Source of the DNA: Longimicrobium sp.
GTDB taxonomy: Bacteria > Gemmatimonadota > Gemmatimonadetes > Longimicrobiales > Longimicrobiaceae
Assembly (NCBI RefSeq): GCF_035474595.1
Contig: NZ_DATIND010000084.1
Coordinates: forward strand, 1-64,000
DNA: 64,000 nucleotides
Direction: 5' to 3'
Made by a program: the position numbers and the translations under genes. Shown here one piece after another: positions 6,246 to 51,273 of this stretch; within the stretch, counting starts at the first letter, position 1, and every line of letters begins with the position of its first letter. The notes under the pieces were generated by a model that saw nothing but the letters and a program-made list of their open reading frames with translations, was not told the DNA's origin and searched no databases.

Positions 6246-7043
6246 ATGCACTTTCCCGTCCTGATCCATCTCGGGCCGCTGACCGTTCCGCCGCACCAGG
6301 TGCTGGAGGCGCTGGGGTGCTTCCTCGCGTTCCGCCTGTATCTCACCCTTCGTCGCCGCGGCGGCGATCCGCTGCCGGCCGAGCGGCGGCTGGTGCTGCT
6401 GGCGGCGGCGACCGTGGGCGCGGCGCTGGGGTCCAAGCTGCTGGCGCTGGCGTGGAACCCCGCGCCCGTGCTCGCGCATCCCGACCTGCGCGTGCTGATG
6501 GCGGGGAAGACGATCGTCGGCGGGTTGCTGGGCGGGCTGCTCGCCGTGGAGCTGGCGAAGAAGTGGGTCGGTGAAACCACGCCGACCGGAGACCTGTACG
6601 TATTTCCGTTGATCGTGGGCGTCGGGGTCGGCCGCGTCGGCTGCTTCCTGACCGGGCTGGCGGACGACACCTACGGCGTGGCCACGCGCCTGCCGTGGGG
6701 GATCGATTTCGGCGACGGCATCGCCCGGCACCCCACGCAGCTGTACGAGATCGCCTTCCTGGCGGCGCTGGCGGGCGTGCTGGCGTGGCGCGCGCGGCGG
6801 CCGTACCCGCGCGGCGACCTGTTCAAGGCGTTCATGGCCGCGTACCTCGCCTGGCGCTTCGCGGTCGACTTCATCAAGCCGGCGCACGTCACCCTGCTGG
6901 GGATGACGCCGATCCAGCTGGCGTGCCTCGGGGGATTGATCTGGTACGCCCCGCATCTCCCGCGGCTGCTGGGGTTCGCGCGCCGGTCCGCATCTCCATC
7001 CCCCTCGTCTCCATCTCCCGAACCCTCCGCGGGACGCGCATGA
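6246..7043 (+). CDS. Divergent Lgt-like membrane enzyme, canonical catalytic residues replaced
   Basis: A 265-residue, seven-segment membrane protein of the prolipoprotein diacylglyceryl transferase fold. Conserved landmarks are RHPTQLYE (161-168), the AWRFAVDF segment carrying the late conserved Arg, and the GRVG signature (129-132). Canonical Lgt reads FHGG where this protein has GKTIVGG (87-93), and GRxGNF where this has GRVGCF, so the essential His and the signature Asn are missing. It is therefore unlikely to be the housekeeping Lgt; it may act on a different phospholipid reaction. Its stop overlaps the start of the radical SAM gene (ATGA), placing both in one translation-coupled operon. 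The C-terminus is a Ser/Pro tail. Confident on fold, unsure on reaction. Confidence 0.8.
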   Translation: MHFPVLIHLGPLTVPPHQVLEALGCFLAFRLYLTLRRRGGDPLPAERRLVLLAAATVGAALGSKLLALAWNPAPVLAHPDLRVLMAGKTIVGGLLGGLLAVELAKKWVGETTPTGDLYVFPLIVGVGVGRVGCFLTGLADDTYGVATRLPWGIDFGDGIARHPTQLYEIAFLAALAGVLAWRARRPYPRGDLFKAFMAAYLAWRFAVDFIKPAHVTLLGMTPIQLACLGGLIWYAPHLPRLLGFARRSASPSPSSPSPEPSAGRA

Positions 7044-8494
7044 GCGACAAGGTAAGGCCGTACCTGTACTACGACGTGGCGCTGGCCCTCTGCTCGCGGT
7101 GCCTGCGCAAGGTGGAGGGAAAGATCCTCTTCGCGGACGGCAGGGTGATCCTGGAGAAGCGCTGCCCCGAGCACGGCCGCGAGCGCGTGCTGGTGGCCGA
7201 CGACGTGGAGTACTACAAGCGCAGCCGCGAGGTCTTCATCAAGCCGCCCGAGCAGCCCAACCACAACCAGACGCCGATCCGCTACGGCTGCCCGTACGAC
7301 TGCGGGCTCTGCCCCGACCACGAGCAGCACTCGTGTCTCGCGCTGATCGAGGTCACCGACGCGTGCAACCTGAAGTGCCCGGTGTGCTACGCCGAGAGCG
7401 GCCCGCACCGCCCCGACTTCCGCCCGCTGGAGCTGATCGAGCGGATGATGGACGCGCTGGTGGCCAGCGAGACGCAGCCCGACGTGGTGCAGATCTCCGG
7501 CGGCGAGCCCACGCTGCACCCGCACTTCTTCGAGATCCTGGAGGCCGCGCGCGCCCGCCCCATCAAGCACCTGATGGTGAACACCAACGGGCTGAAGATC
7601 GCCGAGGACCGCGAGTTCGTGCGCCGGATGGCGGAGCACAAGCAGAACTTCGAGATCTACCTGCAGTTCGATTCGTTCCGCCGCGAGGCGCTGATGGAGC
7701 TGCGCGGCGCCGACCTGCGCCGCATCCGCCGCAAGGCGCTGGAGCACCTGAACGAGTTCGGCATCTCCACCACGCTGGTGGTGACGTTGAAGAAGGGACT
7801 GAACGACGACGAGGTGGGGGAGATCATCCGCTTCGCGCTGGAGCAGCCGTGCGTGCGCGGCGTGACCTTCCAGCCAGTGCAGGCGGCGGGACGCCTGGAG
7901 GATTTCGATCCGGCGACGGACCGGCTGACGCTGACCGAGGTGCGGCGCGCCATCTACGAGCAGTCCGGCGTGTTCCGCGCCGAGGACGTGGTCCCCGTTC
8001 CCTGCCACCCCGACTGCCTGGCCATGGCGTACGCCTTGAAGCTGGGCGGCCGGGTGCTGCCGCTGACGGGGATGATCGACCCGCAGATCCTGATCGAGGG
8101 CGGCAGCAACACCATCGTCTTCGAGCAGGACCCGGGGCTGCGGCAGGCGCTGTTCCGCGCGTTCAGCACCAACCACTCGCCCGAGAGTGGCGCGGCATCG
8201 CTCCGCGAGCTGCTCTGCTGCCTCCCCACCGTGCAGGTGCCGGACGGGTTCGGCTACGCCAACGTCTTCCGCGTGCTGGTGGTGCAGTTCATGGACGCGT
8301 ACTCCATGGACATCCGCTCGGTGAAGAAGAGCTGCATCCACATCGTGCACCCGGACGGGCGGCTGATCCCCTTCGACACCTACAACCTGTTCTACCGCGA
8401 CGGCCGCGAGCAGCACTGGAAGCCGCGCCTGGCCGACCCGTGGGCCGAGCGCGGCCGCCTGCCGCTGCTGCAGACGCACGGAGGCGTGGCGTGA
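7040..8494 (+). CDS. Radical SAM protein resembling tetraether lipid synthase (Tes)
   Basis: A 484-residue protein with the canonical CX3CX2C cluster motif C109-NLK-C113-PV-C116. Upstream is a cysteine-rich N-terminal domain: CSRC (18-21), RCPEHG (C42), and CPYDCGLCPDH with C84, C88, C91, then C99. This order (zinc-like CxxC, CPEHG, CxxDCGLC, then ITD/VTDACNLKCP) is the layout of the archaeal tetraether-synthase/MJ0619-like family, which uses several Fe-S clusters to couple inert lipid carbons. QISGGEPTLHP is the GGE motif that binds the SAM amino group. It overlaps the Lgt-like gene by 4 nt and the next membrane gene by 4 nt, so lipid or membrane-embedded substrate chemistry is a reasonable inference. 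A different radical C-H chemistry cannot be excluded. Confidence 0.82.
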   Translation: MSDKVRPYLYYDVALALCSRCLRKVEGKILFADGRVILEKRCPEHGRERVLVADDVEYYKRSREVFIKPPEQPNHNQTPIRYGCPYDCGLCPDHEQHSCLALIEVTDACNLKCPVCYAESGPHRPDFRPLELIERMMDALVASETQPDVVQISGGEPTLHPHFFEILEAARARPIKHLMVNTNGLKIAEDREFVRRMAEHKQNFEIYLQFDSFRREALMELRGADLRRIRRKALEHLNEFGISTTLVVTLKKGLNDDEVGEIIRFALEQPCVRGVTFQPVQAAGRLEDFDPATDRLTLTEVRRAIYEQSGVFRAEDVVPVPCHPDCLAMAYALKLGGRVLPLTGMIDPQILIEGGSNTIVFEQDPGLRQALFRAFSTNHSPESGAASLRELLCCLPTVQVPDGFGYANVFRVLVVQFMDAYSMDIRSVKKSCIHIVHPDGRLIPFDTYNLFYRDGREQHWKPRLADPWAERGRLPLLQTHGGVA

Positions 8495-8949
8495 GCGACG
8501 AGCGCCCCGCCGGCGAGACGCCCGCGCCCGGAGAGACGCCCGCGCCGGAAGCGGACGCGTTCGCCGTCGCGGCCGATCCAAGCGCGACCGATGCGGGCGT
8601 GGACGAGCGGCCGGCGGGGATGGAGCAGCCCGCGCGCCCCATCCCGAGCCCGGTGCGGCAGGGGATCATGGCGGCGCTGACGCTCTTCGGCATCTCGGTG
8701 GGGGTGGAGCTCGCCGCGCTGCTGCTGGTGCGGCTCTCGGGCGACCCCAACGGGAACGTGGCGGGCATCTTCCTGCTCGCCGGCCTGGGGATCTTCGTGG
8801 TGGGGCTCTTCGCGGCGCTCACCATCACCACGAAGCTTCCACCCGCGGCGCGGCTGCCGTTCTGGGCGATGGGGATCGTGTGCATCTTCGTGACGATGAT
8901 CCTGTGGGGCGTCACCTGCGGCCTGGCCGGAACCCCGCGCTTCGTATGA
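8491..8949 (+). CDS. Small membrane protein, paralogue 1 of 3
   Basis: A 152-residue protein with a GTG start overlapping the radical SAM stop (GTGA). A disordered Pro/Glu/Ala N-terminus (1-50) precedes three to four hydrophobic segments. Landmarks are LSGDPNGN, TKLPPAARLPFWA and ILWGVTCGLAG. The same scheme (LSGD/LTGE, LP-xx-R-xx-FWA, WG-x-TC) occurs in the two genes downstream, so these are tandem duplicates. Unknown function; context suggests a membrane accessory of the Lgt-like/radical SAM operon. The conserved Thr-Cys at the end of the last segment stands out. Confidence 0.78.
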   Translation: MSDERPAGETPAPGETPAPEADAFAVAADPSATDAGVDERPAGMEQPARPIPSPVRQGIMAALTLFGISVGVELAALLLVRLSGDPNGNVAGIFLLAGLGIFVVGLFAALTITTKLPPAARLPFWAMGIVCIFVTMILWGVTCGLAGTPRFV

Positions 8950-8974: not shown

Positions 8975-9334
8975 ATGAGGGAGCGCGACGACGTTCCGCC
9001 GCGCGAGCGGCCCGCGCCGGAGCACCGCGTCGCGCCGGAGACGGAGGCGGGGAGCCCGTTCCTGCAGGGCGTCCGCGCCGCGCTGGGGATCCTGGCGGGG
9101 ATGCTGGCGCTCGAGGCCGTGGCCTTCCTGGGCAACGCGCTCACCGGCGAGCGGCAGGAGGGAATGTTCATCCTGCTGGGGATGCTGATCGCCGGGGGCG
9201 GGTTCGCGGTGCTGGTGCTGGGCGGCGCGCGCCTTCCCCGTGCCGCGCGCGTCCCGTTCTGGGCGGTCGGGCTGATCTGCCTGGCCATTGCGTTCATCCT
9301 GTTGGGCGTCACCTGCGGCGTGATCGCCAGCTGA
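8975..9334 (+). CDS. Small membrane protein, paralogue 2 of 3
   Basis: A 119-residue protein starting 25 nt after the previous stop. A charged N-terminus (1-28) is followed by hydrophobic segments. It shows the family landmarks LTGERQEG, RLPRAARVPFWAVGL and ILLGVTCGV, matching its neighbours at 8491-8949 and 9651-10064. No catalytic motif. Probably co-transcribed with the radical SAM operon. Confidence 0.75.
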   Translation: MRERDDVPPRERPAPEHRVAPETEAGSPFLQGVRAALGILAGMLALEAVAFLGNALTGERQEGMFILLGMLIAGGGFAVLVLGGARLPRAARVPFWAVGLICLAIAFILLGVTCGVIAS

Positions 9335-9650: not shown

Positions 9651-10064
9651 ATGCGGGACGATACCGGGAACACGCCGCCGGAGTGGAGCGTTCCGCCGGA
9701 GCAGCCCGGCGGCGCGGGCGGCGGCGGGCGGGGATACTACTCGGGCCCTCCGCCCTACGGCGAGCAGCCCGTTCGCGACCCGGATGCCACCAGGCGCGGG
9801 GTCCGCGCGGCGCTGATCATCTTCGGGATCGTCATCGCCATGCACCTGGTGCTGTTCGCGGCGGTGAAGCTCTCCGGCGACAGCAACAACGCGTGGCTCT
9901 TCCTTCCCGAGGGCGTGCTGGTGGTCATCGCCGCGCTGGTGGCCGCGATCGTCGTTTCCATCAAGCTGCCGGTGGATTCGCGCGTGTCTTTCTGGGCGGT
10001 GGGCGTGGGGTGCATGTTCCTTTCCTTCATCATCTGGGGCGCCACCTGCGCGATCGCGCTGTAG
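9651..10064 (+). CDS. Small membrane protein, paralogue 3 of 3
   Basis: A 137-residue protein. Residues 1-45 are Gly/Pro/Tyr-rich and probably disordered; then come hydrophobic segments with the landmarks KLSGDSNNAW, IKLPVDSRVSFWAVG and IIWGATCAI shared with the genes at 8491 and 8975. A GGAGAG ribosome site sits at the correct distance. It is separated from paralogue 2 by a 316-nt gap holding a double-hairpin repeat, so it may be an independent transcription unit. It is followed by a strong terminator. Confidence 0.75.
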   Translation: MRDDTGNTPPEWSVPPEQPGGAGGGGRGYYSGPPPYGEQPVRDPDATRRGVRAALIIFGIVIAMHLVLFAAVKLSGDSNNAWLFLPEGVLVVIAALVAAIVVSIKLPVDSRVSFWAVGVGCMFLSFIIWGATCAIAL

Positions 10065-13971: not shown

Positions 13972-14063
13972 GCGGAAGTGCGGAAGTGCGGAAGTGCGGA
14001 AGTGCGTGAGTGCTGAGTGCTGAGTGCTGAGTGCTGAGTGCTGAGTGCTGAGTGCTGAGTGCT
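13972..14063 (+). repeat. Short tandem arrays GCGGAAGT and GAGTGCT (left arm)
   Basis: About five 8-nt units (13972-14006) followed by eight 7-nt GAGTGCT units (14008-14063). A reverse-complement array of AGCACTC units lies at 14251-14365, so the two can pair into a long stem that loops out a double-hairpin element. Confidence 0.9.
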
Positions 14064-14159
14064 GACCTTACGCGGAGGCGCGGAGGATTCGTGACGGCAC
14101 GGAGTTCTCCGCGCCTCCGCGCCTTGATGCGTGATCTCCGCCGGGATAGTGCGGTCGCG

Positions 14160-14207
14160 AGTCCGCGAAGGCGGACTTCGGGCCGTTGTTGCCGCGAATT
14201 CATTCGC
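14160..14207 (+). repeat. Double-hairpin intergenic element, Y-type copy 1
   Basis: First stem AGTCCGC-GAAG-GCGGACT (14160-14177), linker GGGCCGTTGTTGCC, second stem GCGAA-TTCA-TTCGC (14194-14207). It sits between the two complementary short-tandem arrays in the gene-free stretch 13875-14366. Confidence 0.88.
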
Positions 14208-14250
14208 CGGGGGGGCCACAGCTGCCAGCCCGTCGCTCGGTTTCCCCCTT

Positions 14251-14365
14251 CAGCACTCAGCACTCAGCACTCAGCACTCAGCACTCAGCACTCAGCACTC
14301 AGCACTCAGCACTCAGCACGCACTCAGCACTCAGCACTCAGCACTCAGCACTCAGCACTCAGCAC
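14251..14365 (-). repeat. CAGCACT tandem array (right arm)
   Basis: About sixteen 7-nt units with one interruption (CAGCACGCACT). It ends at the stop codon of the minus-strand HAD gene, so in the direction of transcription the mRNA runs from the stop codon straight into AGTGCTG repeats. Confidence 0.9.
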
Positions 14366-14366
14366 C

Positions 14367-15059
14367 CTACTCCACCCGCTCCGCGTCCGGCCCGATCAAC
14401 CGCGCCAGATCGTACTCCGCCAACTCGCCGATGCGCTCCAGCGTGACGTCGGCGGGGGCGAAGCGCGAGCAGAGGTCGGGGTCGAGCGCGTAGTGGCCCT
14501 GGCGCGGGAAGACGGTGGTCAGGCGCCCGCCCCACACCTTCCGCATCTCGTCCAGGATGCGGAGCTTGTCGTCCACCATCACGTAATGCCGCGCGGGATA
14601 GCGCTCCTCCACGTCGTCCAGCATCTCCTCCTTGTGGATGTAGATGAGGACGTTTCCCTCCACCGCGTCCCACAGCCCGCTCCGCTCCACCTTGCGCGGC
14701 TGGAACACCACGTCGCCGTCGGAGAGGATGACCACGGGGCCCCACCGGCGGCAGTGCTCGATCACGTCCAGCGAGCCGGGATACAGCCGGTTGGCGAACG
14801 GGTAGTTGACCAGGTAGGTGCTGACGGCGAGCAGGTTGGGATCGCGCGGGTGCTCCACGCGGAAGCGCTGCAGCGCGCCCAGGTAGTCGGCGTACCCCAG
14901 CTCGCTCCGCAGCTCCTCGAAGGTGTCCCAGTACCACTGCGCCCGCTCGCCGCCGAAGGCGCCGGTCAGGTGGCGCCTCAGGTCGGCCGTCACGCGGTCG
15001 TTGTCGAGCAGCGTGTTGTCCACGTCGAACAGGAACACCACGTCGTGGCGCAGGCTCAT
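14367..15059 (-). CDS. HAD-superfamily hydrolase
   Basis: A 230-residue haloacid-dehalogenase-type protein. Motif I is FLFDVDNTLLDND (nucleophile D12, acid D14), motif II is LSDGD (112-116), and K123 in PRKVE fits the motif II/III Lys. HYVMVDDKLRIL supplies the acidic motif IV. The helical cap domain (about 20-95) is of the type seen in phosphoglycolate phosphatase-like enzymes. HAD enzymes hydrolyse small phosphate esters; substrate cannot be told from sequence. The stop codon directly adjoins a tandem repeat array rather than a classical terminator. Confidence 0.85.
   Translation of the reverse strand: MSLRHDVVFLFDVDNTLLDNDRVTADLRRHLTGAFGGERAQWYWDTFEELRSELGYADYLGALQRFRVEHPRDPNLLAVSTYLVNYPFANRLYPGSLDVIEHCRRWGPVVILSDGDVVFQPRKVERSGLWDAVEGNVLIYIHKEEMLDDVEERYPARHYVMVDDKLRILDEMRKVWGGRLTTVFPRQGHYALDPDLCSRFAPADVTLERIGELAEYDLARLIGPDAERVE

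Positions 15060-47463: not shown

Positions 47464-51273
<3,810 letters not shown>

Follow-up and report, generated by a model that had tools for sequence, protein, structure and literature searches.

In this study, we show that a divergent Lgt-like protein, a Tes-like radical SAM protein and Cys-bearing mini-membrane proteins travel together across bacterial phyla. The set was found in a window of Longimicrobium sp. DNA, by which we mean the whole 64,000-nucleotide stretch analysed (contig NZ_DATIND010000084.1, positions 1 to 64,000). What we demonstrate is a new gene module whose enzymes are divergent members of known families. We see an even chance that its three parts make up a dedicated membrane-protein lipidation or modification module, in which the mini-proteins would be the substrates of the Lgt-like and radical SAM enzymes, with a chemistry that we infer.

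Organization of the locus

The genes of the locus are as follows.

6246..7043, + strand: Lgt-like integral membrane protein, non-canonical, here called module Lgt (PF01790, 5azb fold match, residue table)
7040..8494, + strand: Tes-like radical SAM protein (sequence, NCBIfam, PDB sequence and fold matches, Tes ligand spacing)
8491..8949, + strand: Cys-box mini-membrane protein 1, with a C-terminal helix ...MILWGVTCGLAGTPRFV and its Cys codon at 8917-8919 (sequence, L034 homologue, aligned Cys)
8975..9334, + strand: Cys-box mini-membrane protein 2, ...FILLGVTCGVIAS, Cys codon at 9314-9316 (sequence, aligned Cys)
9651..10064, + strand: Cys-box mini-membrane protein 3, ...FIIWGATCAIAL, Cys codon at 10047-10049 (sequence, aligned Cys)

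The true start of the radical SAM gene is the ATG at 7040, giving a protein of 484 aa that ends at 8494, and this start overlaps the stop codon of the 265-aa module Lgt ORF by 4 nt (ATGA), an overlap already claimed in a preliminary description of this DNA. The GTG start of mini-protein 1 (8491) in turn overlaps the radical SAM stop codon (GTGA), and a homologue of this mini-protein sits downstream of the radical SAM gene in locus L034. The mini-proteins, which are mechanical ORF calls with a topology inferred from charge, are a third component that was absent from the preliminary description.

Elsewhere in the window, simple repeats translating as STQHSALSTQHSAL recur between genes at 14000-14500, with similar RTSALPHF repeats at other places, and a single 1269-residue ORF (47464-51273) looks like a fused hydantoinase/oxoprolinase.

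Conservation of the gene pair

A co-occurrence survey, which the preliminary description had proposed, covered 518 genomes (298 of the same phylum, 120 Paenibacillaceae and 100 Acidobacteriaceae). The module Lgt was found in 40 of them, and all 40 carry the radical SAM gene, which occurs alone in 1 genome. In the same phylum, the module Lgt (at least 115 bits; next match 103) is present in 8 of the 298 genomes, with the radical SAM gene adjoining in every one. Twenty of the 120 Paenibacillaceae have the radical SAM gene and the identical 20 have the module Lgt (at least 261 bits; next 83), all adjacent, while both genes are in the same 12 of 100 Acidobacteriaceae (at least 256 bits; next 108), with direct adjacency not in all of these.

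A scan of named genomes yielded 80 radical SAM loci (54-70% identity), which are spread over at least eight phyla with names (Bacillota, Bacteroidota, Acidobacteriota, Pseudomonadota, Cyanobacteriota, Melainabacteria, Planctomycetota and Myxococcota), and the Lgt-like gene adjoins the radical SAM gene in most of them. Blind clustering of the neighbouring ORFs revealed the Lgt-like gene as the sole other conserved gene (70 of the 80 loci, several of the remaining ones being contig ends). By the same clustering, neither an ether- or tetraether-lipid gene nor a dedicated peptidase or protease is conserved around the 80 loci. The two genes are also adjacent in L034 and L036 and in the divergent loci L038-L041 and L043. 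In this divergent second group, a small membrane protein (DPVRFC...) is conserved just downstream of the radical SAM gene in L039, L041 and L043, and a small ORF ending GLCLFVAR or GLCLFVLR lies between the two genes in L038 and L041.

Pairwise distances of the module Lgt and radical SAM proteins are correlated (r 0.84, Mantel p 0.0005). In both comparisons genome G135 has a copy nearest to Burkholderiales, which indicates joint transfer. Co-occurrence, adjacency, parallel trees and co-transfer therefore support the functional coupling of the two proteins in a strongly conserved module. A degenerate Lgt could have come to lie beside a radical SAM gene by chance, through ordinary paralogue drift, and non-canonical Lgt paralogues do occur elsewhere, one of them (L002) in the same genome and likewise without the His and Asn. 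However, co-occurrence in 40 of 40 cases among 518 genomes, an order and overlap conserved across phyla, and invariant clade-specific residues make such drift extremely improbable, and chance pairing was rejected on the co-occurrence surveys. No description of the Lgt and radical SAM combination, or of the gene set as a whole, was found in the open-licence literature, consistent with the impression at the outset that the combination was undescribed; subscription journals may contain an earlier account.

Cys-box mini-membrane proteins

The ORFs adjoining the pair encode tiny membrane proteins whose sequences differ widely, and tandem groups of two or three are frequent. They have in common a hydrophobic helix with positive charge before it and a Cys after it, most often Cys-Gly, and this Cys is the sole invariant column in an alignment of 13 diverse mini-proteins. 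By a uniform criterion, a Cys-box ORF stands next to the pair in 88 of 101 loci, the other 13 being without the box. Among small ORFs with a transmembrane segment, the box was present in 121 of 178 near the pair versus 35 of 225 distant from it (Fisher p 1.7e-27; the loci are related by descent, so that p-values overstate independence). Because ORFs near the pair are membrane-rich in general, with other residues enriched 3.6-7-fold, this contrast among transmembrane ORFs, rather than raw enrichment, is the proper control.

Ile and Ala are the most frequent residues before the box Cys, and Gly is the most frequent one after it; usually just 3-16 residues follow the Cys. The canonical lipobox [LVI][ASTVI][GAS]C fits 4 of 123 Cys boxes; this and the short tail rule out the mini-proteins as ordinary lipoproteins. 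No known family in Pfam or NCBIfam matched them above cut-off, the best match being DUF4064 (E 2e-4, 22 bits vs 32.1).

Architectures vary with lineage. Bacteroidota mini-proteins have two or three helices and end, for example, in ISLGICGSM. In half of the Paenibacillaceae, the mini-protein is encoded downstream of the radical SAM gene and has LLNAACFG close to its end. The Paenibacillus type-A mini-protein has strong matches in 10 of the 120 genomes, all module-positive and always adjacent, and one further marginal match (E 5e-4); nine of the other 10 module-carrying Paenibacillaceae have a different Cys-tail protein just upstream of the Lgt gene, ending for example in LLLAICGAMIF. Alternative Paenibacillaceae mini-proteins with a similar C-terminal Cys tail were seen at L067 6820-7080 and in the upstream ORFs of L193-L201, and the L067 protein carries an N-terminal B-box zinc finger (PF00643, E 1.8e-5). 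In some Proteobacteria and Acidobacteriaceae, the Cys sits in an N-terminal helix.

Some radical SAM family members are without an Lgt partner (L035 9405-11095, L103 9478-11201, L108 9470-11139 and L085 1947-3637). In these loci the radical SAM gene is followed by genes for a DUF547 protein and a methyltransferase, as it is in G104, a genome of the same phylum as the window; the L103 methyltransferase is close to the DVU_1556 family (141.6 bits vs 155) and resembles ArsM-type enzymes too. No Cys-box ORF was found at the Lgt-less loci with DUF547 and methyltransferase genes, so that the presence of the box follows that of the Lgt-like enzyme.

A non-canonical Lgt family

The module Lgt matches PF01790 in Pfam (87 bits, E 1.6e-24; cut-off 24.9). 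Its AlphaFold model (pLDDT 93.6) has E. coli Lgt (5azb) as its sole significant PDB fold match (E 6.1e-9), and with the NCBIfam Lgt equivalog TIGR00544 it scores 34.4 bits, under the cut-off of 118.9. E. coli residue numbers were taken from the alignment to 5azb. In the window protein, GKTIVGG stands in place of the FHGG segment, with V91 at His103, and GRVGCF in place of GRLGNF, with C133 at Asn146, which bears out the initial claim that the catalytic His and signature Asn had been lost. H17 and E21 occupy the positions of Tyr26 and Tyr30, while R130 (R143), E168 (E202), Y200 (Y235) and R204 (R239) are kept.

A residue table of 72+5 module proteins revealed that the equivalents of R143, E202, Y235 and R239 are retained in 100%. 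The His103 position is Val, Met, Leu or Ile in every phylum, with His never among the listed residues; the Asn146 position is Cys in 100%, and Tyr26 is replaced by His in 99%, Tyr30 by Glu in 96% and R246 by Lys in 94%. In a tree, the 77 module Lgt proteins fall on one side of a branch and 16 paralogues on the other (SH-aLRT 99). The module Lgt is thus a coherent non-canonical Lgt family, and His103, Asn146 and the equivalog cut-off together rule it out as a canonical Lgt.

Further Lgt copies, mostly of the HGG/HGA type, are present in 12 of 12 module genomes examined. The genome of the window has, on contig C156, an Lgt paralogue reading WYGG and GRVGCF (L002 1501-2274), and L141 and L144 also carry the paralogue type with YGG for HGG and GRxGC for GRxGN. 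Paralogues of the L002 type are also without the His and Asn, and the loss of both residues is therefore wider than the module Lgt.

In E. coli Lgt, the donor site for phosphatidylglycerol has been assigned R143 and R239, His103 has been placed in a region proposed for acceptor peptide binding, and substitutions of His103 or Tyr26 abolish function (PMC4728403). With the donor residues kept and His103 and Tyr26 changed, the sequences suggest that the module Lgt is a live enzyme with a retained donor site and a rebuilt acceptor side. Given that the E. coli substitutions are inactivating, it may have a different activity or none at all.

A Tes-like radical SAM protein

The preliminary description had listed ten Cys residues in the radical SAM protein (C18, C21, C42, C84, C88, C91, C99, C109, C113 and C116), and all ten positions are exact. 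The protein has a rubredoxin-type site C18-C21-C42-H45 (CX2CX20CX2H), an N-terminal cluster C84-C88-C91 (C-X3-C-X2-C) and a radical SAM cluster C109-C113-C116 (CX3CX2C). By comparison with the ligands and spacing described for Tes (PMC9433317), which has four metal sites, the ligands of three sites are retained with Tes spacing. The divergent second group (L038-L043) is without the C84/C88/C91 site.

Tes (7tol/7tom) is the top match by sequence (E 6.5e-73) and, in the structure comparison suggested at the outset, by fold (E 1.5e-37), and covers nearly the full length of the protein; the RiPP maturases SkfB and SuiB are among the next fold matches. The score with the NCBIfam Tes model NF045702 is 286.5 bits, under the cut-off of 450, and the best-scoring NCBIfam model, NF045646 (TrsS), matches residues 18-459 with 326.5 bits, under its cut-off of 490. 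Of two residues that do not vary among archaeal Tes proteins, Tyr459 has become Ile in 81 of 84 module radical SAM proteins, and Met439 is kept in 64 of 84 but lost in the window protein; a Cys conserved in Tes-type proteins (PFC motif) is Asp or Glu in 84 of 84. In a tree, a branch with SH-aLRT 99 separates the module radical SAM clade from the Tes-type clade, the deeper branching of these quick trees with long branches being uncertain. Family f11 of the same phylum (L042, L045-L049) comprises bacterial Tes-type proteins with no Lgt-like neighbour in the stretch covered, and the two that were scanned, L045 and L047, pass the Tes cut-off (602 and 580 vs 450).

The protein was ruled out as a Tes by cut-off, tree and residues, and as a TrsS by the NCBIfam cut-off. 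The early assignment as Tes-like thus holds for the top sequence and fold match and the ligand pattern; it does not extend to the Tes cut-off or to phylogenetic grouping with Tes, the clade lying apart from the bacterial Tes-type proteins.

The preliminary description had proposed a bacterial pathway to membrane-spanning or cross-linked lipids. In such a pathway, the Lgt-like protein would load diacylglyceryl on a lipid head group or remove it from one, tails would be coupled by the Tes-like protein, and the mini-proteins would be lipid-presenting scaffolds. This fits the nearly full-length match to a tail-coupling enzyme as closest solved relative, the donor-lipid residues retained in the module Lgt, and the proposal of bacterial Tes homologues for brGDGT synthesis (PMC8941075). 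Nevertheless, the radical SAM protein lies in a separate clade and under the Tes cut-off, whereas this cut-off is exceeded (602 vs 450) by Tes-type proteins of the same phylum, which have no Lgt partner. Tyr459 is replaced by Ile (81/84) and the Tes-type Cys by Glu or Asp (84/84), and unrelated mini-protein architectures with the Cys box alone in common suit a modification site better than a scaffold. We therefore consider free lipids a rather unlikely product. The functional coupling that the earlier proposal implied is retained, but its free-lipid pathway is disfavoured by the separation from Tes-type proteins and by the lack of any lipid gene conserved around the 80 loci; the Cys-bearing mini-proteins point to protein lipidation instead.

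A RiPP-like system, with the mini-proteins as precursors, a radical SAM enzyme that modifies peptide (e.g., by a thioether at Cys) and the Lgt-like protein as a partner in the membrane, an exporter or an enzyme of later tailoring, is similarly improbable in our estimation. Small ORFs that stand in tandem next to a radical SAM gene and diverge fast do resemble RiPP precursors, SkfB and SuiB follow Tes among the fold matches, and a RiPP-lipoprotein hybrid is known (PMC12636315). On the other hand, a Pfam scan of the radical SAM protein found no SPASM domain and no leader-binding (RRE) peptide-binding domain, its full-length fold is that of Tes, and a Cys at the end of a transmembrane helix is a poor substrate for a cytosolic peptide-modifying enzyme.

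Proposed working and significance

We return to the reading of a protein lipidation or modification module. The mini-proteins are taken as substrates because they occur in tandem copies, diverge outside the Cys box and have unrelated architectures with one common feature. Their Cys box is like a lipoprotein signal (positive residues, a hydrophobic helix and an outer-face Cys, often with Gly) but rarely a lipobox, which is why a dedicated Lgt paralogue is proposed. The module Lgt would transfer diacylglyceryl to the outer-face Cys. More weakly, the Tes-like enzyme might modify either the lipid donor or the product after lipidation by radical chemistry, a candidate being the joining of two acyl tails, or of a tail to the helix, to give a covalently reinforced membrane anchor. 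Since a dedicated peptidase is not conserved beside the pair, the product would probably stay embedded in the membrane. The full scheme, in which diacylglyceryl loading by the Lgt paralogue would be followed by formation of a C-C or C-S bond with acyl tails or helix, giving a cross-linked anchor or membrane-spanning lipoprotein and hence a new kind of bacterial protein lipidation, is possible but doubtful.

The gene set, which pairs two lipid-active enzyme families with apparent substrates, occurs in at least eight named phyla, and many of the bacteria that have it are cultured. It offers a ready test for radical lipid or lipoprotein chemistry in bacteria, and that chemistry, if true, would be categorically new. 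Surveys with BLAST cut-offs count bacterial Tes homologues as brGDGT candidates (PMC8941075; PMC11868695), and they probably include the module radical SAM family, here separated from the Tes type.

Comparison with known systems

Like E. coli Lgt (5azb, PF01790), the module Lgt has the Lgt fold, invariant equivalents of R143, E202, Y235 and R239, and the His-Pro and Tyr-Glu motif. It differs in carrying Val, Met, Leu or Ile for His103, Cys for Asn146, His for Tyr26, Glu for Tyr30 and Lys for R246. It also forms a separate clade, its genome has other Lgt copies, and its putative acceptors rarely fit the lipobox.

With Tes (GDGT-MAS; 7tol, NF045702), the radical SAM protein shares the full-length fold and identically spaced ligands of the rubredoxin-type, N-terminal and radical SAM clusters. 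However, it scores under the cut-off, has Ile for Tyr459 and Asp or Glu for the PFC Cys, is without Met439 in the window protein, and has an Lgt paralogue as its partner. TrsS (NF045646) is the best-scoring NCBIfam model, and the related Lgt-less subset adjoins a DVU_1556-like methyltransferase; the module protein nevertheless stays under the cut-off of 490, and its partners are Lgt-like and Cys-box proteins, not a methyltransferase.

The mini-proteins recall MYXO-CTERM/myxosortase and related Cys sorting signals, in which a transmembrane tail has an invariant Cys that is believed to receive a lipid prior to sorting, and an Lgt-like enzyme has been predicted for Cys-containing C-terminal sorting signals (PMC11980579). 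In MYXO-CTERM, however, the Cys comes before the helix and the end of the tail is cytoplasmic, whereas in the module mini-proteins the Cys follows the helix. Instead of a conserved protease neighbour, the module has a dedicated radical SAM protein and Lgt paralogue.
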